Shown here piece by piece: positions 3,469 to 41,427 of a stretch of DNA of 64,000 bases. Numbering within the stretch: the stretch's first letter is position 1; each line of letters starts with the position of its first letter. Under the pieces are notes generated by a model. The model was not told where the DNA came from and made no database searches. It saw nothing but the letters and a program-made list of their open reading frames with translations. The stretch is from assembly GCA_016199835.1 (NCBI GenBank), contig JACQFX010000039.1, positions 1 through 64,000 of the forward strand, given 5' to 3'. Source of the DNA: Nitrosomonadales bacterium. GTDB lineage: Bacteria > Pseudomonadota > Gammaproteobacteria > Burkholderiales > Gallionellaceae. The position numbers and the translations under genes are program-made.

Positions 3469-3900
3469 TTATAGCTGGAAGCGCAAGCGCATCCTGCGAT
3501 GCGCCATGCCGGCATCCATGAACTCATCCCCCTCTTCCTCGAAACCGAAGCGCCGATAGAACGGCAGCGCCTGCACCTGCGCATTCAACACGACTTGCGC
3601 ATAACCCTGGCTATGCGCATATTCGAGCAATGCTTCCAGCAAAGCCGAGCCCACTCTTTTACCGCGCCACTCGCGCAGCACCGCCATGCGTCCGATGTGC
3701 CCATCCGGCGTGATGCGCCCGCAACCGATGGCATTGCCCCCGGCATCCAGCGCAAGCGCATGACGGCAATGCTCATCCAGGCCGTCCCACTCCAGCTCCG
3801 CCGGCACATTCTGCTCGCGCATGAACACCGTCTCGCGCAGCGCGCGCAATAACGGCTCGCCGTCATGCCAACCCACCATATGCACCGTGATCCTGTCCAT
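3469..3900 (-). CDS. GNAT-family N-acetyltransferase (ElaA-like)
   Basis: This 143-residue protein is read from the ATG at 3900, which has a GGAGG Shine-Dalgarno eight bases upstream; an in-frame start at 3927 lacks one. The GNAT core is clear: GRMAVLREWRGKRVGSALLE carries the acetyl-CoA pyrophosphate-binding R/Q-x-x-G-x-G/A signature (here RGKRVGSA), and LNAQVQALPFYRRFGFEEEG is the usual C-terminal beta strand with the 'FY..FGF' motif. The early FMREQNVPAELEWDGLDE is characteristic of ElaA-like single-domain acetyltransferases. The acceptor is unknown. It is encoded against its neighbours, facing away from the divergent methyltransferase gene. Confidence 0.88.
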   Translation of the reverse strand: MDRITVHMVGWHDGEPLLRALRETVFMREQNVPAELEWDGLDEHCRHALALDAGGNAIGCGRITPDGHIGRMAVLREWRGKRVGSALLEALLEYAHSQGYAQVVLNAQVQALPFYRRFGFEEEGDEFMDAGMAHRRMRLRFQL

Positions 3901-33294: not shown

Positions 33295-34911
33295 TTATAT
33301 GCCTGAAACCCTAGGAAACAGTTGACTTCCCGACGTTCGCCCGGCCAGCAACTGCTCCAGCCTGCCCCGGCCCGCCGCATCTTCGCCGCCATTCAGCTCC
33401 ACCGCACATGCCGATTCCTGCGCCAACAAAGGCTGCTGCACGACTTGCAGCGCCTGCAATACATCAAGATCGGCTTCCGATGCATCATGTGCTTTATCGC
33501 GCCGTTGCACGATGCGCGCGCGCAGCATGGCCGCATCAGCGCGCATGGATGCGATGGCGAACGGCACATCCATGTCCCGCGCCAGCGCGCGAAACTGCTC
33601 GCGCTCATCCTGCCGCAGAAAGGCTGCATCCACGATCACCGGGAAACCCGCATCGAGCAGGCCTCGCGCCAGTTCGAGCAAACGTGCGTAGGTGCGGCGC
33701 GTTGCGTCCGCCGTGTAGATGCCCTCGCCTGTGGCGGAACGGCTGCTGTCGAGCGGGCGCATGCCGAACAGGCGCTTGCGTTCCACATCGGAGCGTATGC
33801 GTATCGCACCCCAGTGTTCGGCAGCAGATCGCGCGAACATGCTCTTGCCCGATCCCGGTAGCCCATGGGTGATGATCAATGCACGCCGCCGCGTGAAACA
33901 GGTATAGGCCAGCGTCAGGTAATCGCGGCAGGCCGCCAGCTCATGCTTGCGCGCACGCCCGGCCTGCGAGGCGCGGATGGCAGCGACCTTGGCGCGCACC
34001 GTGGCGCGATAAGCCAGATAAAAACGCAGCACGGCCACGCCCGCATAATCGCCGGTCGCCTCCAGCCACGCATTCAGGAAACGATATGCCAGATCGGCAC
34101 GCTGCCTGTGCAGCAGATCCATCACTAGGAACGCTGCCTCGTCCATCACGTCTATCCAGCGCAAAGCCGGGCTGAACTCGATACCGTCGAAAGGAACCAG
34201 CTCATCGCCGATCAGCACGATGTTGCCGAGATGCAAGTCACCGTGGCATTCGCGCACGAAACCTTGCGCGCGCCGCTGCGTAAAAATATTGGCGCACGCC
34301 GTGAATTCCTGCGCGGCGATCTGTTCCAGCCCTGCCACGGCATCACGTCCGGCCTGATCCGTCAGCAACATTTGCAATTGCGTGAAATTCTGCATGCTCT
34401 CGTCGCGTATCGTCGCCGCTGAGCCGAACTTCGAACCTGCTTCCGCCCTCGGCAAGTCGCTGTGGAATGCAGCCAGCAGCGCAGCCAGTTTATCTATATG
34501 CTGCGGCGTGATCTTGCCGCGCGCCAGCAATCTATCCATCTGGTTCGCGGTGGCAAAACGCCGCATGCACACGGCGTATTCAAGCACTGGCTGCGCATCA
34601 AATTCAGGCTGCTCCGGACTGCCGCCGATAGCAACGACATCGAGATAAATCTTCGGCGCGAGACGGCGGTTGAGCCTGACTTCTTCGTCGCAACAGAAGC
34701 GTCGCGCATCCAGCGTGGTGTAATCGAGAAAACCCAGATCGAGCGCCTTCTTGATCTTATAGGCATAACGCCCGGCCAGCAGCACCCACGAGATATGCGT
34801 CTCGATCACGCGCACCGTCTTCGCTGCATGGGGAAAGCAATGGCCGTCGCGCAACGCGGCGATCAACGTTTGCTGGGCGGAGTAATCGATTTGATTGGTG
34901 CGTACAGGCAT
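33295..34911 (-). CDS. Bifunctional APH-like kinase / AAA_33 ATPase
   Basis: This 538-residue protein joins an aminoglycoside-phosphotransferase-like kinase domain (about 1-330) with a P-loop kinase-like domain (about 340-510). The first carries the catalytic HGDLHLGNIVLI (H-x-D-x-x-x-x-N) and VPFDGIEF (metal-binding Asp). The second has Walker A HGLPGSGKSMFARSAAEHWG and RSDVERKRLFG, as in zeta-toxin-like and polynucleotide-kinase-like ATPases. This pairing is seen in many proteobacterial genomes, but the substrates are unknown. Antibiotic resistance should not be assumed, because the APH fold is used for many small-molecule and protein kinases. Confidence 0.85.
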   Translation of the reverse strand: MPVRTNQIDYSAQQTLIAALRDGHCFPHAAKTVRVIETHISWVLLAGRYAYKIKKALDLGFLDYTTLDARRFCCDEEVRLNRRLAPKIYLDVVAIGGSPEQPEFDAQPVLEYAVCMRRFATANQMDRLLARGKITPQHIDKLAALLAAFHSDLPRAEAGSKFGSAATIRDESMQNFTQLQMLLTDQAGRDAVAGLEQIAAQEFTACANIFTQRRAQGFVRECHGDLHLGNIVLIGDELVPFDGIEFSPALRWIDVMDEAAFLVMDLLHRQRADLAYRFLNAWLEATGDYAGVAVLRFYLAYRATVRAKVAAIRASQAGRARKHELAACRDYLTLAYTCFTRRRALIITHGLPGSGKSMFARSAAEHWGAIRIRSDVERKRLFGMRPLDSSRSATGEGIYTADATRRTYARLLELARGLLDAGFPVIVDAAFLRQDEREQFRALARDMDVPFAIASMRADAAMLRARIVQRRDKAHDASEADLDVLQALQVVQQPLLAQESACAVELNGGEDAAGRGRLEQLLAGRTSGSQLFPRVSGI

Positions 34912-35401
34912 CTGAGTATCCTGGTGCTCCTGCCCTCATCTTTATGGCAGAGGCACAGATTACACCGATGCGCATAGGTTGCCCATGAGATGACTGCATT
35001 CCGATACGGCCACCGAATTTAGATGACATACAACGAATACGATGACATACAACGAATACATAGTCAGCACGCCACGAGCGAATGCCGTCATTGACACCCA
35101 TCCAGTCCTCTAATAGAGTCGCGCCACTTGCGCAACCGCCAAACAAACCGCACCGCAATGCACGGTGCAGACTCGGCGGAAATCAGACTAGGAGGCTGGC
35201 GCAATTCCCTTTCTCATCCCCTCTTCCGCCTGCTGGAGAGGGTTAGGGAGAGGGCGATTTCCGCACACGCGGATTTAAATTGTTATTAAGGGGATAACAA
35301 TGCTGGCCTCCATACACCTCATTCGTGATGCACGGGCGACGACCTGCGACTCCGCATGCGCGATGTTTGGCTCCCGCAGTTTTAATCCCAAAGAGTTCCT
35401 G
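34912..35401. other. Intergenic region upstream of the CRISPR-Cas locus
   Basis: About 490 bases separate the APH-AAA gene from the tracrRNA gene. They contain a perfect 19-bp tandem duplication of GATGACATACAACGAATAC at 35022-35059 and a CCCTCT/AGAGGG imperfect palindrome at about 35215-35252. A small open frame begins at 35300 behind AAGGGG. Otherwise I see no gene; the left end has mixed composition with no coding bias. Confidence 0.6.
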
Positions 35402-35527
35402 AAAAGAGAAAACCCAGCGAGTTGCCTCGCTGGGTTTGGATACAGAATCTTTCGATTCTTTATTGTAGCAACGGCTCTCACCCCGGATGAACTACAACGG
35501 TTGCATTATCACGGAGAACAAGCATGA
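35300..35527 (+). CDS. Possible 75-residue leader frame ending at the cas9 start
   Basis: An ATG at 35300, preceded by a strong AAGGGG about 7-12 bases upstream, opens a 75-residue frame. It ends with TGA overlapping the cas9 ATG (ATGA). Its second half is the antisense of the tracrRNA anti-repeat and terminator, so its codons are constrained by RNA structure and it may not be a protein gene. It could be a leader peptide coupling translation to cas9, or pure chance. No domain is recognised. Confidence 0.3.
   Translation: MLASIHLIRDARATTCDSACAMFGSRSFNPKEFLKRENPASCLAGFGYRIFRFFIVATALTPDELQRLHYHGEQA
35402..35437 (-). terminator. tracrRNA terminator hairpin
   Basis: AAACCCAGCGAG and CTCGCTGGGTTT form a 12-bp stem with a GCAA tetraloop, followed on the minus strand by TTTTCTCTTTT. 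This defines the 3' end of the tracrRNA near 35402. Confidence 0.9.
35402..35498 (-). ncRNA. tracrRNA: tracrRNA of the type II-C CRISPR-Cas9 system
   Basis: The minus strand from about 35498 to 35402 has the full plan of a tracrRNA. The 5' part (35462-35498) is an anti-repeat. It is complementary to the array repeat over CATCCGGGGTGAGAG plus flanking GTAG, then has a bulge (CCGTT opposite TCCCT) and a second pairing block (GCTACAA). The bulge and lower stem, ending CCGTTGCTACAATAA, closely resemble my memory of the Neisseria meningitidis tracrRNA. A stem-loop AGAATC-GAAA-GATTCT follows at 35444-35459, then a 12-bp terminator hairpin with a T-rich tail. The gene runs away from cas9. Confidence 0.88.
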
Positions 35528-35534
35528 CTAGCAA
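35505..35534 (-). promoter_or_regulatory. Predicted tracrRNA promoter overlapping the cas9 start
   Basis: On the minus strand a -10 GATAAT (plus coordinates 35505-35510) and a -35-like TTGCTA (35529-35534) are 18 bases apart. This places the transcription start near 35498, exactly at the anti-repeat. The -35 lies inside cas9 codons 2-4 and the -10 just upstream of its Shine-Dalgarno. It matches consensus at 5/6 and 4/6 positions. Competition between tracrRNA transcription and cas9 expression would follow. Confidence 0.55.
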
Positions 35535-38500
35535 GCAGAAAAATCTTGGCCCGCTCACCTTCGGATTGGACATCGGTATTGCGTCGGTTGGATGGGCGGT
35601 ATTGGGAGAGAACCGTATCGTTGATCTTGGAGTGCGGTGCTTCGACAAAGCGGAAACCGCCAAAGAGGGCGAATCGCTCAACCTAGCGCGGCGCACTGCA
35701 CGCCTCATGCGCCGCCGTTTACGCCGTCGCGCGTGGCGACTCACCAAGCTGGCACGACTGCTCAAGCGCGAAAGCCTGATCTCTGATGCAAACCTCCTCA
35801 AGCAACAACCTGCAAAAGGTTTTAAGACGCCCAACCTGTGGAAGCTGCGCGTGGAAGCGCTCGACCGCAAACTCGAGGCCGAGGAATGGGCGCGCGTGAT
35901 TTACCATTTGTGCAAGCATCGCGGCTTCCACTGGATCAGCCGCGCAGAAGCCAAGGCTGCGGACAGCGATAACGAAGGCGGCAAGGTCAAGAAAGGGTTG
36001 GCTGGCACCAAGAAGCTGATGCAGGAGAAGAACTACCGCACTGCGGCGGAGATGGTATGGAAAGAATTTTTCAAGCTGCGTGAAGATCAAGACGGAAAGC
36101 CTGCATTAACCGAGAAAACACAAGAACCAATCTTTGATGGCGTAGCGCGCAACAAACAAGGCGATTACAGCAAGGCGCTCTCGCGCGAGTTGCTTGCTGA
36201 TGAATTGAGAACCCTGTTCCAGCATCAGCGCGAATCCGGCAACCCTCACGCAAGCGAAAAACTGGAAGCCGCCATCCTCGGCAACGGCGACAAGAAGAGC
36301 GGATTGTTCTGGGCGCAAAAGCCAGCGCTGGCAGGAAAAGACTTGTTGAAGATGCTCGGACACTGCACTTTCGAGAAAGCGGAATTCCGTGCGCCCAAAG
36401 CCAGCTTCAGCGCCGAGCGCCATGTCTGGCTGACGCGCCTCAACAATCTGCGCATCGTGGTGGATGGAAAAATACGTTCGCTCACCGAAGCGGAACGGCA
36501 AATCGTTCTGCCTCTGCCCTACGATCAAGCCGGCGACTTCAGCTACAAACAACTACGCAAGGCACTGACAAAAGCTGGACTGTCTGACGAATTCCGCTTC
36601 GCGGGCCTTTCCTATCCGAGCGACAAGCAGAAAACCGAAGAGAAAGCCAAAGACCCGGAAGACGAAAAACTCATCAAACTGCCCGCATGGCAAGAATTGA
36701 AGAAGGCGCTAAAGGACAAGGAATTAGAAACCGAGTGGCTAAAAATCTCGGTAGCTGCACGCGATGGCAAGCCACAATTACTCGATAAAATCTCCGAAGT
36801 GCTTTCCGTGTACAAAGAAGATGCGGAAGTCGAAGCCGAGTTACGCAAGCTGGATTTGCCCGGCAAAGACAAGATGGTGGATGCCCTGCTCGACATCCGC
36901 TTCGACAAGTTCAGCAACCTCTCGCTCAAGGCGCTATACAACATCCTGCCGCACATGGAAGCGGGGCTGCGTTATGACGAAGCCTGCATAAAGGCGGGCT
37001 ACCACCACAGCCAGTTGCACAAAGTCGGAGACGGCGAGCATACCTACCTGCCGCCGTTCTACTCCGGGCGCGATAAAGATGGGCGCCTGAAATTCAACGA
37101 GGACATGGACATCCCGCGCAACCCGGTGGTGCTGCGCGCGCTCAACCAAGCGCGCAAGGTGGTTAATGCGCTTATCCGCAAATACGGCTCGCCCCATGAG
37201 GTGCATATCGAAATGGCCAGAGACTTAACAAGGCCATTAAAAGGGCATTGGTCGGAAAGCGGAAAATATATTGAAGGTCGCCTAGACGTCATGAAAATGC
37301 AGGGCGAATTCCGTGAGCGAAATGAAAAAGACAAGGCGGCCTTCGCCAGCGAATTCAACATCACCGGCGCAGTCAAAGGCAAGGACTTCGAGAAATACCA
37401 ACTCTACCGCGAGCAACAAGGCAAATGCGCCTACTCGCTGGGGGCCATGGACATCAACCGTCTCTGGGAGCAGGGCTATGTCGAGATAGACCATGCCCTG
37501 CCCTATTCGCGCAGTTTTGATGACAGCAAGAACAATCGGGTGCTGGTGCTGGCACGGGAAAATCGCAACAAGGGAAACATGACGCCTTACGAATATCTTG
37601 GAGGCGTAGAGAACAGTCCGCGCTGGCAAAACTTCGTCGGCTTCGTCAACACCACCAAGACATACCGGCAAGCCAAACGCAACCGCCTGCTCAAGAAAGA
37701 TTTCGGCGACAAGGAAGCCAAGGACTTCCGCGACCGCAACCTCAACGACACCCGCTACATCTGCCGCTTCTTCAAGAACTACGTCGAGCGCTATTTGAAG
37801 CTGCACGATGAAAGCGATGCGAAACGCTGCGTGGTTCTCAGCGGCCAGATGACCTCCTTCCTGCGCGCCCGCTGGGGGTTAGTCAAGGTGCGCGGCGACT
37901 CCGACCGCCACCATGCGCTGGATGCCGCCGTGGTCGCCGCATCCAGCCACGGCATGGTCAAGCGCCTGTCCGATTACTCGCGCCGCAAGGAACTGGAAAA
38001 AGTGCGCGAAGGCTTCGTGGATATGGAAACCGGCGAGATCGTGAACCCCGCAATGTTCGAAAAACTCGAACAGCACTTCCCTTCTCCATGGTCGCATTTC
38101 CGCGATGAATTACTGGCACGGCTTTCGATTGACGATCCCGCAAAGCTGCGCGCCGAAATGGAAAGGCTGGGCAATTATCCGGCGGATACACTGGAAGCAT
38201 TGCGCCCGCTGTTCGTCTCACGCGCTCCACAACGGCGCAATGGTGGCGCAGCACACATGGATACGATCTACACAAAACCACGAGATGGCCATGTACTCAT
38301 GATCGAAGACAAAGAGGCAAAGAAAATTGCAAAAGATAAGGCCGAAAAAGTATTGCGCCCTGCTTCTACCGATGAAAAGGACAGCATGGCTATTGCTCGT
38401 ATCGGCGTAACGGACAAAGATAGCAAAGGTAACTACAAGCTCACCTTGGAAAAACTGGATGACATTGTTGATCCACGCCGCAACGAACGAATGATTGAAG

Positions 38501-39177
38501 CTTTACGCCAATGGATAGTTGGCCGCGACGAACGCGAAAAAGCGGCAAAAGTAATTGAGGCAAATTGGGGGCGTGGTAAAGAAAAACGAAAACCAACTGA
38601 TGCCGAGAATGCAGAACTCGAACGCTTGCGTGCATTGCCACGCAAGCCTCTACAAAGCGATCCTGATAGCGGCCCATTCACCGGCCCAATCATTCGCGCT
38701 GTCAAAATCAATGCGGGGAAGATGAGCGGTATTCAAATCCGCAATGGGCTGGCTGCACAAGAATCACTTATCCGTGTGGATGTCTTCACCAAGGATGGGA
38801 AATTCTATCTTGCCCCTCTATATGTGGCAGGCATTGTAAAGGGAATGCTGCCAGATCAAACAGCCGATGGAGAAACAAAGATTGATAACAGCTTCGATTT
38901 TCGCTTCGCACTCCATCCAAATGACCTGGCGAAAGTAACACTCAAAGGGAAAGGTTCAATTCTTGGTTATTTCAGAGGCTACGGTGGCCCACCCAACCCT
39001 TACAACATTACTCTATCGATACATGATCGCAACAAGAACGGCCACGAAAGGGCGAATGACAAGGGAGAAATTCCGAGTATCGGCATCAAGACAGCTTTGA
39101 ACGTCGAAAAGTTTAACGTGGATGTTCTCGGCAACGTCTACCCCGCCCCAGCGGAGACCCGCCGTGACTTGGCGTAG
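35524..39177 (+). CDS. cas9: CRISPR-associated endonuclease Cas9, type II-C
   Basis: This 1217-residue Cas9 has a complete set of nuclease residues. RuvC-I is FGLDIGIASVGWAVLGE with D16; an Arg-rich bridge helix follows at about 59-80 (LMRRRLRRRAWRLTKLAR). RuvC-II is VHIEMARDL with E563. The HNH domain is GYVEIDHALPYSRSFDDS with D656 and H657, plus N680 in RENRNKGN. RuvC-III is DRHHALDAAVVA with H797 and D800. The HNH and RuvC-II sequences closely resemble Neisseria-type II-C Cas9 (about 1082 residues). The extra length lies in the recognition lobe and especially in the C-terminal PAM-interacting part. GGAG is seven bases before the ATG. The tracrRNA is divergent at the 5' end, and cas1 overlaps the 3' end by 14 bases. 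Confidence 0.97.
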   Translation: MTSKQKNLGPLTFGLDIGIASVGWAVLGENRIVDLGVRCFDKAETAKEGESLNLARRTARLMRRRLRRRAWRLTKLARLLKRESLISDANLLKQQPAKGFKTPNLWKLRVEALDRKLEAEEWARVIYHLCKHRGFHWISRAEAKAADSDNEGGKVKKGLAGTKKLMQEKNYRTAAEMVWKEFFKLREDQDGKPALTEKTQEPIFDGVARNKQGDYSKALSRELLADELRTLFQHQRESGNPHASEKLEAAILGNGDKKSGLFWAQKPALAGKDLLKMLGHCTFEKAEFRAPKASFSAERHVWLTRLNNLRIVVDGKIRSLTEAERQIVLPLPYDQAGDFSYKQLRKALTKAGLSDEFRFAGLSYPSDKQKTEEKAKDPEDEKLIKLPAWQELKKALKDKELETEWLKISVAARDGKPQLLDKISEVLSVYKEDAEVEAELRKLDLPGKDKMVDALLDIRFDKFSNLSLKALYNILPHMEAGLRYDEACIKAGYHHSQLHKVGDGEHTYLPPFYSGRDKDGRLKFNEDMDIPRNPVVLRALNQARKVVNALIRKYGSPHEVHIEMARDLTRPLKGHWSESGKYIEGRLDVMKMQGEFRERNEKDKAAFASEFNITGAVKGKDFEKYQLYREQQGKCAYSLGAMDINRLWEQGYVEIDHALPYSRSFDDSKNNRVLVLARENRNKGNMTPYEYLGGVENSPRWQNFVGFVNTTKTYRQAKRNRLLKKDFGDKEAKDFRDRNLNDTRYICRFFKNYVERYLKLHDESDAKRCVVLSGQMTSFLRARWGLVKVRGDSDRHHALDAAVVAASSHGMVKRLSDYSRRKELEKVREGFVDMETGEIVNPAMFEKLEQHFPSPWSHFRDELLARLSIDDPAKLRAEMERLGNYPADTLEALRPLFVSRAPQRRNGGAAHMDTIYTKPRDGHVLMIEDKEAKKIAKDKAEKVLRPASTDEKDSMAIARIGVTDKDSKGNYKLTLEKLDDIVDPRRNERMIEALRQWIVGRDEREKAAKVIEANWGRGKEKRKPTDAENAELERLRALPRKPLQSDPDSGPFTGPIIRAVKINAGKMSGIQIRNGLAAQESLIRVDVFTKDGKFYLAPLYVAGIVKGMLPDQTADGETKIDNSFDFRFALHPNDLAKVTLKGKGSILGYFRGYGGPPNPYNITLSIHDRNKNGHERANDKGEIPSIGIKTALNVEKFNVDVLGNVYPAPAETRRDLA

Positions 39178-40069
39178 CATCGTCATCTCCCGTCCCGCCA
39201 AGCTCAAGCGGGATCATTATTCGCTTGCCATCGAGCAAGGGCAAACCGCCTGCGTGCCGTTCGAGGACATCGCGGTGATCGTGCTCAACCACCGCGAGAT
39301 CACGCTCACTCATCCGGTGCTTTCGGCCTGCGGCGAATATGGCATCAGCCTGTTTGCCACGGGCGACACGCATCATCCCAGCGGCGTGTTCATCCCCTTC
39401 CTGCCGCATTCGCGCGCCACACGTTGGCTGCGCTTGCAACTCGACTTGCCGCGTCCCGTCGCCAAGCAAACCTGGGCCGCCATCGTGCGTAAGAAAATCT
39501 CCAACCAAGCCGCCTGCCTGCGCATGGCGGGACGTGACAGCGCCGACAGGCTGGACTCCTATGCGCGGCGGGTACGCTCCGGCGACTCGGATAATCTTGA
39601 AGGCCAAGCCGCCTTCTTCCATTTCACGCAATTATTTGGCAAGGATTTTCGCCGCGACCATGAACGCTACACCAACGCCGCGCTGGATTATGGCTACGCG
39701 GTACTACGCGGCACGATTGCGCGCGGCCTAGTGGCGCACGGGCTGATGCCATCCATCGGACTGTTCCATGCCAGCGAGCAGAATGCCTTCAACCTCGCGG
39801 ATGATGTGATCGAGCCGTTTCGCCCGCTGGTGGATTTGTTCGTGTACAGGATGATGCCGCAACCCGACGATGAGCTGCATCCCGAAGACAAGGTGGCGCT
39901 GGTGGGCCTGCTCAACGTGGACGTGGGTATGCCGCGCGGCAAGATGTCCGTGCTTTCCGCCATCGAACACATGATAGAAAGTCTCGCCCGCATCTACGAT
40001 GGCGGCAATGAATCGTTGCTCGAAATGCCGAGCATCATTGGGCTGGAGCAACATCGGCTGGAGTGTTAA
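39164..40069 (+). CDS. cas1: CRISPR integrase Cas1
   Basis: This 301-residue protein starts at a GTG (39164) with GGAG seven bases upstream and overlaps the end of cas9 by 14 bases. The N-terminus TWRSIVISRPAKLKRDHYSL is typical of type II Cas1. The metal-binding active site is complete: E146 (DNLEGQAA), H202 (GLFHASEQNAFNLADD) and E217 (DVIEPFRPLVD). Cas1 forms the integrase complex with Cas2 and inserts new spacers into the array. The overlap indicates coupled translation with cas9. No csn2 or cas4 is present, consistent with subtype II-C. Confidence 0.97.
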   Translation: MTWRSIVISRPAKLKRDHYSLAIEQGQTACVPFEDIAVIVLNHREITLTHPVLSACGEYGISLFATGDTHHPSGVFIPFLPHSRATRWLRLQLDLPRPVAKQTWAAIVRKKISNQAACLRMAGRDSADRLDSYARRVRSGDSDNLEGQAAFFHFTQLFGKDFRRDHERYTNAALDYGYAVLRGTIARGLVAHGLMPSIGLFHASEQNAFNLADDVIEPFRPLVDLFVYRMMPQPDDELHPEDKVALVGLLNVDVGMPRGKMSVLSAIEHMIESLARIYDGGNESLLEMPSIIGLEQHRLEC

Positions 40070-40177: not shown

Positions 40178-40510
40178 ATGAGTACGGAGACCAGACGATT
40201 CATGCGCATGCTCGTATTTTTTGATCTCCCTGTCGTCACCAAAGCGGAACGCCGCGCCTACACGGTATTTCGCCGTTTTCTCGTCAACGACGGCTACGAC
40301 ATGATCCAGTTCTCGGTGTATGGCCGCATCCTGAACGGCAACGACGCGCTGGAGAAGCACTACAAGCGTTTGGTGGACAACCTTCCGCCCGAAGGCTCGG
40401 TGCGTTGCCTCAGCGTGACGGAAAAGCAATTTGCCAGCATGAAACTGCTCGTCGGCCTGCCGCTTTTTCAGGAAAAAGCTATCAAGGCCAATCAAATGCT
40501 GCTGTTCTGA
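40178..40510 (+). CDS. cas2: CRISPR-associated endoribonuclease-like Cas2
   Basis: This 110-residue protein starts at an ATG with GGAG about eight bases upstream. It has the Cas2 ferredoxin-like start RMLVFFDLPVVTKAERRAY with the conserved Asp (D16) and the FRRFLVNDGYDMIQFSVYGRIL segment. SVRCLSVTEKQFASMKLLVG follows, typical of type II Cas2. Cas2 is the structural partner of Cas1 in spacer acquisition. The array begins 62 bases downstream. The length is normal. Confidence 0.97.
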   Translation: MSTETRRFMRMLVFFDLPVVTKAERRAYTVFRRFLVNDGYDMIQFSVYGRILNGNDALEKHYKRLVDNLPPEGSVRCLSVTEKQFASMKLLVGLPLFQEKAIKANQMLLF

Positions 40511-40572: not shown

Positions 40573-41427
40573 ATGGTAGCTCATCCGGGGTGAGAGAGGG
40601 AGCTACAACCCACGGAAACGCCGGTTGATCGAGAGCAGAATGGTAGCTCATCCGGGGTGAGAGAGGGAGCTACAACTCGCGTTCGATTGCTGATTAGCGG
40701 TAGTTGATGGTAGCTCATCCGGGGTGAGAGAGGGAGCTACAACAGCATTTGCCGCCGTAGATGTTGCAGCACTATGGTAGCTCATCCGGGGTGAGAGAGG
40801 GAGCTACAACTTGGCGAGATGTAATCCCGCTCAAATATATATGGTAGCTCATCCGGGGTGAGAGAGGGAGCTACAACCTCTCGCGGATTGAAGCGCAAAT
40901 GAAAGAAATGGTAGCTCATCCGGGGTGAGAGAGGGAGCTACAACCCACGGAAACGCCGGTTGATCGAGAGCAGAATGGTAGCTCATCCGGGGTGAGAGAG
41001 GGAGCTACGAGAGGGAGCTACAACCTAAATCTATGCGTGACAAGCTTGGTATTCGATGGTAGCTCATCCGGGGTGAGAGAGGGAGCTACAACCTACATCA
41101 TCAATATGCTGGCAAAGTTCCAATGGTAGCTCATCCGGGGTGAGAGAGGGAGCTACAACCCGGCAGCAGCCGTCGCCCTGATTACCGGGATGGTAGCTCA
41201 TCCGGGGTGAGAGAGGGAGCTACAACCGAATGAACTGAAAACCACTGGCGGGTCGGATGGTAGCTCATCCGGGGTGAGAGAGGGAGCTACAACAATTCAA
41301 ACAGTTGCTATCCAAAGCGCTGAATGGTAGCTCATCCGGGGTGAGAGAGGGAGCTACAACGAAATGGCGGGTGGCGTGATCAACAGCGCGATGGTAGCTC
41401 ATCCGGGGTGAGAGAGGGAGCTACAAC
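40573..41427 (-). CRISPR. Type II-C CRISPR array, 13 repeats and 12 spacers
   Basis: The repeat is 37 nt; in crRNA orientation (minus strand) it begins GTTGTAGCTC and ends GATGAGCTACCAT. Starts on the plus strand are 40573, 40640, 40707, 40774, 40841, 40908, 40975, 41056, 41123, 41190, 41257, 41324 and 41391, a 67-nt period with 30-nt spacers. Repeat 7 (40975-41024) is 50 nt because 13 nt are duplicated, and spacer 7 is 31 nt. Spacer 1 (40610-40639) and spacer 6 (40945-40974) are identical. All other repeats are identical, including both terminal ones. The orientation is set by tracrRNA complementarity. The repeat ends in TACCAT, which could be a -10 element as in Neisseria arrays. Confidence 0.98.

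Follow-up and report, generated by a model that had tools for sequence, protein, structure and literature searches.

How a type II-C CRISPR-Cas system balances the supply of Cas9 against that of its guide RNA is, to our knowledge, a largely open question. Antisense tracrRNA genes upstream of cas9 are already known in type II systems, and the locus described here raises the question in a particular form: the putative tracrRNA promoter lies on the start of cas9 itself. In the window (the whole stretch of 64,000 nucleotides analysed here), cas9, cas1 and cas2 are adjacent and the CRISPR array follows 62 nt past cas2 (Table 1), which places the locus in type II-C. By gene order, neither csn2 nor cas4 stands beside the cas9-cas1-cas2-array block, and the short distance between cas2 and the array leaves no space for an extra gene between them. 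Since the minus strand is the crRNA strand that fits the tracrRNA, the array would be read toward the cas genes. One array spacer occurs twice (40610-40639 and 40945-40974) and a duplicated piece of truncated repeat directly follows the second copy; these duplications point to an internal rearrangement of the array.

Table 1. Features of the CRISPR locus and of the cas9 leader in the window.
Feature	Positions	Strand	Basis or detail
Candidate cas9 promoter, TTGACA-17-TAGAGT	35091..35119	+	10/12 consensus; recurs before cas9 in relatives
Leader RNA element (model R1)	35114..35204	+	99.9 bits, E 3.9e-23 (window sequence is part of the model)
Inverted repeat with Shine-Dalgarno, TTGTTAT-TAAGGGG-ATAACAA	35280..35300	+	Precedes leader ORF
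Leader ORF, 75 codons	35300..35527	+	Antisense to the whole tracrRNA; stop overlaps cas9 start (ATGA)
tracrRNA (anti-repeat, nexus hairpin, rho-independent terminator)	35402..35498	-	Predicted ends; repeat complementarity, fold, relatives
tracrRNA promoter	35505..35534	-	-10 GATAAT 35510-35505; -35 TTGCTA 35534-35529; 18-nt spacer
cas9, 1217 aa	35524..39177	+	NCBIfam TIGR01865, E 3.2e-215; ORF
cas1	39122..40069	+	NCBIfam TIGR03639, E 1.8e-80
cas2	40178..40510	+	NCBIfam TIGR01573, E 1.9e-22
CRISPR array, 37-nt repeats, mostly 30-nt spacers	40573..41427	-	crRNA strand inferred from tracrRNA pairing

The tracrRNA gene has the parts by which such genes are defined, namely an anti-repeat complementary to the repeat, downstream hairpins and a terminator. 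Over 33 positions the anti-repeat can be aligned to the array repeat's complement with five mismatches, four of them clustered mid-alignment, and the terminator consists of a 12-pair stem at 35437-35410 with TCTCTTTT after it. The predicted 97-nt RNA folds well below its shuffles (z = -4.9). Its promoter has 9 of 12 consensus letters and is one of two promoter-like sites in 34900-35800 (shuffle mean 0.6). The -35 box falls on cas9 codons 2-4 (+6 to +11). The promoter spacer contains the cas9 start codon and its Shine-Dalgarno sequence GGAG (35513-35516), and 13 bases separate the -10 box from the start codon. The original prediction of a minus-strand tracrRNA with its -10 at 35505-35510 and its -35 within the first cas9 codons thus had the coordinates right, as judged from the sequence and the promoter scan. 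Its further claim, that the gene is antisense to the cas9 leader and its promoter straddles the cas9 start, is borne out by the sequence and by a geometry conserved among relatives.

For this comparison, Cas9 relatives were taken from six loci of the genome contig search and from three genome samples at the level of class (369), order (399) and phylum (398), with Cas9 matches in 28, 45 and 39 genomes, respectively (some genomes, including that of the window, were shared between samples). After removal of L037 (identical to L001), 36 loci were kept whose N-terminal-most tblastn segment had at least 37% identity; loci with lower identity or a missing N-terminus were dropped. A tracrRNA nexus was found on the minus strand within 420 nt in 35 of the 36. 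L008 and L071, which duplicate the contigs of L003 and L004, and L063 (tracrRNA not found) were then left out, giving 33 distinct loci. By hand count, the -35 box falls within the first cas9 codons in 24 of them: 22 with ATG starts plus L040 and L047, which start with GTG (the -35 of L047 is a poor match). It lies just upstream of the cas9 start in three loci (L045, L046, L051) and well upstream in six (L054-L057, L059 and L060; no cas9 start was detected automatically in L055 and L060, which were read from the sequence). Its position is exactly +6 to +11 in 15 of the 22 ATG loci. Against random places in the same genes, given the same spacing choice as the real loci but no choice of -10, the -35 boxes of the 22 ATG loci matched TTGACA better (mean 3.82/6 versus 2.32, sd 0.20; 0 of 10,000 draws as high), where -10 and spacing of the real loci were each the best of a few positions and the loci are related, hence non-independent. 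TTG begins the box in 20 of the 22 (null mean 1.4), and in four loci with the promoter elsewhere codons 2-4 spell no -35 (best 3/6). This strong null comparison argues that the overlap of the tracrRNA -35 with the 5' end of cas9 exceeds chance among these related loci.

The loci L054-L057 and L060 resemble what we take to be Neisseria type II-C loci, judged by the meningococcal tracrRNA. Like the window, loci of this type carry a minus-strand tracrRNA of the same nexus type upstream of cas9; unlike the window, the tracrRNA -35 in L054, L056 and L057 lies about 71-78 nt upstream of cas9, with no overlap. For N. meningitidis cas9, one report places -35 and -10 boxes in the gene's own upstream region (PMC13431127).

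Where does cas9 transcription begin in the window? No plus-strand promoter candidate was found at the promoter-scan threshold in 35120-35523, and the candidate upstream of this stretch (Table 1) recurs, together with the bases that follow it, before cas9 in two relatives (L002 and L006), while the genes upstream of it differ among the window, L002 and L006 (L006 by eye). Similar sites also precede other immune operons. The start of cas9 transcription upstream of 35402 that the note had envisaged is therefore likely: the candidate is conserved in relatives and has no competitor in the interval. Judged by this conservation, the cas9 mRNA probably arises from the promoter at 35091-35119 and has a leader of some 400 nt. 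If so, this leader would carry the full complement of the tracrRNA and the 75-codon ORF that ends on the cas9 start. The predicted promoter competition was sustained in part. Competition between two adjacent promoters was dropped because the cas9 promoter candidate lies about 400 nt away; what stands is possible polymerase collision, pairing of tracrRNA with the leader, and RNA polymerase and ribosome crowding each other on the same 30 bp.

From the -10 of the candidate promoter onward lies a putative structured RNA. Searched as DNA, 35080-35215 gave matches in 11 of the 60 family genomes, nine after removal of two 27-nt chance matches (L114, L115), which were also excluded from the leader alignment. 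Twelve leader copies were alignable, and the model R1 was built from seven (alignment A3; L109, L110, L112, L113 and L118 left out). It comprises three helices plus a small hairpin that displays AGGAGG in its loop, and its opening letters are the promoter -10. Two of the helices show compensatory changes in the seven-sequence alignment. With the structure drawn by eye on the same seven sequences that were used for testing, 93.8% of cells were paired (0 of 500 shuffles) and nine cells were changed on both sides versus 3.7 (0 of 500). Two of five structure measures were not unusual: five pairs with changes on both sides were reached in 35 of 500 shuffles and the pair types in 154 of 500. Single leader sequences fold near their shuffles, with one exception (z -0.6 to -2.8). 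No Rfam family reached its gathering score on 35114-35204; with E relaxed to 5, the sole matches were three microRNA models far under their cut-offs. In four of ten leaders, all of them cas9 leaders, the match between the AGGAGG loop and a GCCTC early in the leader ORF was unusual against shuffles, and in one of the four another leader stretch pairs over a greater length; such pairing in cas9 leaders is only a possibility. Further downstream, a short stretch of the window (35219-35256) has two other occurrences in the genome (89-93% over 29-38 nt), in the manner of a dispersed intergenic repeat.

R1 matched at 46 places (E up to 0.01) in 23 of the 60 family genomes, and 12 of these places score at least 55 bits. 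In an order sample of 300 genomes, searched with stricter filters and few candidates scored per genome, five genomes matched at E up to 0.001, all in the family of the window, which is probably Gallionellaceae. Together with the copy in L006 (Sideroxydans, 66.1 bits; within Gallionellaceae according to NCBI taxonomy), the 12 matches at 55 bits or more make 13 strong copies. Immune operons stand behind nine of these 13, a count to be read with the search having been seeded from the cas9 leader and with SIR2 and Lamassu leaders among the seven R1 sequences. Six precede cas9 (the window, G1142, G1126, also present as L002, G1148, G1131 and L006). The others precede LmuA, LmuC and LmuB of a Lamassu system, type I-C genes (Cas3 and Cas5, together with a WYL regulator), and a SIR2-HerA operon. 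This last copy is the second strong copy in the window's own genome (L152 6562-6657; C7:145561-145656, minus strand), followed by genes for SIR2, HerA and a 1030-aa TPR protein. For three strong copies (two in G1144, one in G1136), the five downstream ORFs gave no PADLOC match, and one copy (G1121) lies near a contig end.

Among the 34 weaker copies, a subset was inspected. One precedes a Kiwa pair (KwaA 5.8e-75, KwaB 1.4e-126; L157 4207-5865) and another has a GmrSD-like protein as second gene; further ones stand before HDOD, chemotaxis, ORF6N and methyltransferase genes. With such mixed genes behind them, the weaker copies as a class lack specificity for immunity. Gabija GajA (2.2e-187) lies behind a copy in L118 that was found by the DNA search only. 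In L148 (4050-7264) and L149 (3873-14887), several weaker copies occur within a few kb, in front of HDOD, chemotaxis and other genes, as in a wider regulon.

Among the close cas9 loci, those of the window, G1126, G1131, G1148 and L006 carry R1. It is absent upstream of four others (L166, L169 and L174 in G1118, G1124 and G1122, and L007 from Gallionella), which keep the tracrRNA arrangement without the leader element; in L170 (G1132) the upstream DNA is too short for a call. R1 was not found at the divergent Cas9 loci L172 and L175. The cas9 contig of G1121 has no element, yet carries a leader ORF like that of the window. Carriage of the leader by phages was also considered and rejected: a 21-letter pattern matched five viral contigs, where R1 scored 23.9 bits on two and 11.9 on one (other two unreported), and because none shows the leader promoter by eye, the matches are taken as chance. 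The match on one of these contigs (L181) resembles, by eye, the reverse complement of a tRNA anticodon arm; this likeness prompted the idea that the AGGAGG loop might sense tRNA.

One distant locus has the same order of parts. In G1142 (L151), Cas9 is only 33% identical to that of the window and is accompanied by its own cas1 and cas2 and by an unrelated repeat. As in the window, a leader promoter (10/12), R1 (98.3 bits), a minus-strand tracrRNA and cas9 follow one another. The minus strand carries a promoter TTGACG-17-TAAGAT (3574-3546), an anti-repeat (3536-3509) and a terminator (3481-3457); cas9 begins at 3592, so that the tracrRNA promoter ends 17 nt before the gene and there is no overlap. 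L151 is an independent case of the order leader, antisense tracrRNA, cas9.

The leaders also share a putative small ORF. A clear TTGTTAT-like / AGGGG / ATAAC block with a start codon was seen by eye in eight of the 13 strong leaders, including those of SIR2, Lamassu and type I-C; variants occur in G1148, G1131 and G1136, and none in L006, where the element stands before cas9, yet no recognisable leader ORF was found; the G1121 sequence does not reach this block. The predicted peptide mostly begins M-x-A-S. In G1131 the arrangement equals that of the window (antisense, ATGA stop) with a different first half. The ORF ends in ATATGA on LmuA and in TAAATG at type I-C, and the ORF before SIR2 runs 8 nt into the gene before its stop begins. 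In five of nine tested leaders the stop lies between -9 and +8 relative to the gene start (against an expected 1.5, P 0.001), for a range set after seeing the data, a gene list of our own choosing and an assumed CTG start in G1121; the ATGA of cas9 by itself favours this count. In three cas9 loci the ORF stops 38-57 nt before cas9, and in G1142 14 nt inside. Differences among four sequences at codon positions 1/2/3 (38/41/55) give a weak coding signal, and no plasmid-borne relative of the ORF was found. Coding of the ORF and its coupling to the downstream gene are thus suggestive only.

The reading that we favour, and hold to be somewhat better than evenly supported, is that a type II-C tracrRNA gene is nested antisense in the cas9 leader, that cas9 is transcribed from 35091-35119 through a leader element shared with other immune operons, and that the two transcripts dampen each other. 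Less weight, somewhat short of even odds, belongs to a rival view, in which a streamlined locus lets cas9 and tracrRNA share DNA and the antisense overlap is without consequence for regulation. The anti-repeat starts right after the -10 box, leaving the minimal spacing that space-saving predicts, and the arrangement is kept with and without the leader element. The fixing of the -35 at codons 2-4 in many loci speaks against it, since separate starts work in others (L054, L056, L057, L059), but the fixed geometry is equally explicable by descent.

It is rather unlikely that cas9 is instead transcribed from a promoter within the tracrRNA-complementary stretch or near its own start, with a short leader and an upstream element that serves otherwise. 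The scan found no plus-strand site in 35120-35524 at its threshold, and the conserved upstream promoter precedes cas9 in relatives with differing upstream genes; on the other hand, in 23 of the 28 loci scanned (among which L004 and L071 are one contig) the 800 nt upstream contained no strong consensus promoter, so that these may have a weak internal one. For Streptococcus pyogenes type II-A, one report describes tracr-L, a long tracrRNA isoform that acts as a single guide and feeds back on cas expression (PMC11417352). Like the tracr-L/tracr-S pair as described there, the tracrRNA locus of the window is tied to cas expression, here as a proposal; unlike it, the window belongs to another subtype than II-A and lacks the long-isoform signature. 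With this precedent and with tracrRNA and cas9 so close together, an extended tracrRNA could be thought of as a natural single guide by which Cas9 silences its own promoter. We regard this as highly improbable and disfavour it: no repeat-like segment was found upstream of the anti-repeat on the minus strand of 35505-36000 (score 7 against a shuffle mean of 8.2; 285 of 300 shuffles scored the same or higher).

Mutual dampening would work as follows. By sequence and conserved geometry, the putative tracrRNA promoter covers the ribosome-binding site and first codons of cas9. The tracrRNA and the leader share 97 nt of complementarity, so collision and pairing are both possible: tracrRNA transcription could run into convergent cas9 transcription, and free tracrRNA could pair with these 97 nt and expose the leader to RNase III. 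Such pairing would be hindered wherever ribosomes occupy the leader ORF. Since the predicted tracrRNA start lies about 15 nt from the cas9 Shine-Dalgarno sequence, pairing alone need not block initiation. The shared leader element probably sets translation of the downstream gene, in several cases by means of the small ORF that ends at the gene start. Mutual dampening of guide and nuclease supply is the likely outcome, rather than a sharp switch; a switch between the two supplies, as originally suggested, is plausible.

Riboswitch-like and leader-peptide leaders consist of a promoter, a structured RNA, a small leader ORF and the gene. The window leader, with its putative structured RNA and putative ORF, would have its parts in the same order; unlike such leaders, it has no Rfam match and recurs before unrelated immune operons. 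Among the titles and abstracts listed from open-licence literature, neither the overlap of a tracrRNA promoter with cas9 nor the shared leader is described. More tentatively, and with the balance of probability against it, one family-wide leader RNA might control type II and type I-C CRISPR, SIR2-HerA, Lamassu and, from among its weaker copies, Kiwa and Gabija through a common signal, while at cas9 ribosomes on the leader ORF and tracrRNA compete for one RNA and so tie nuclease to guide supply.

A tracrRNA promoter on the cas9 start, together with a long cas9 mRNA that would contain the complement of the tracrRNA, makes control in cis directly testable. The shared leader, if true, would provide the family with a common switch, at the level of RNA, for several immune systems at once.
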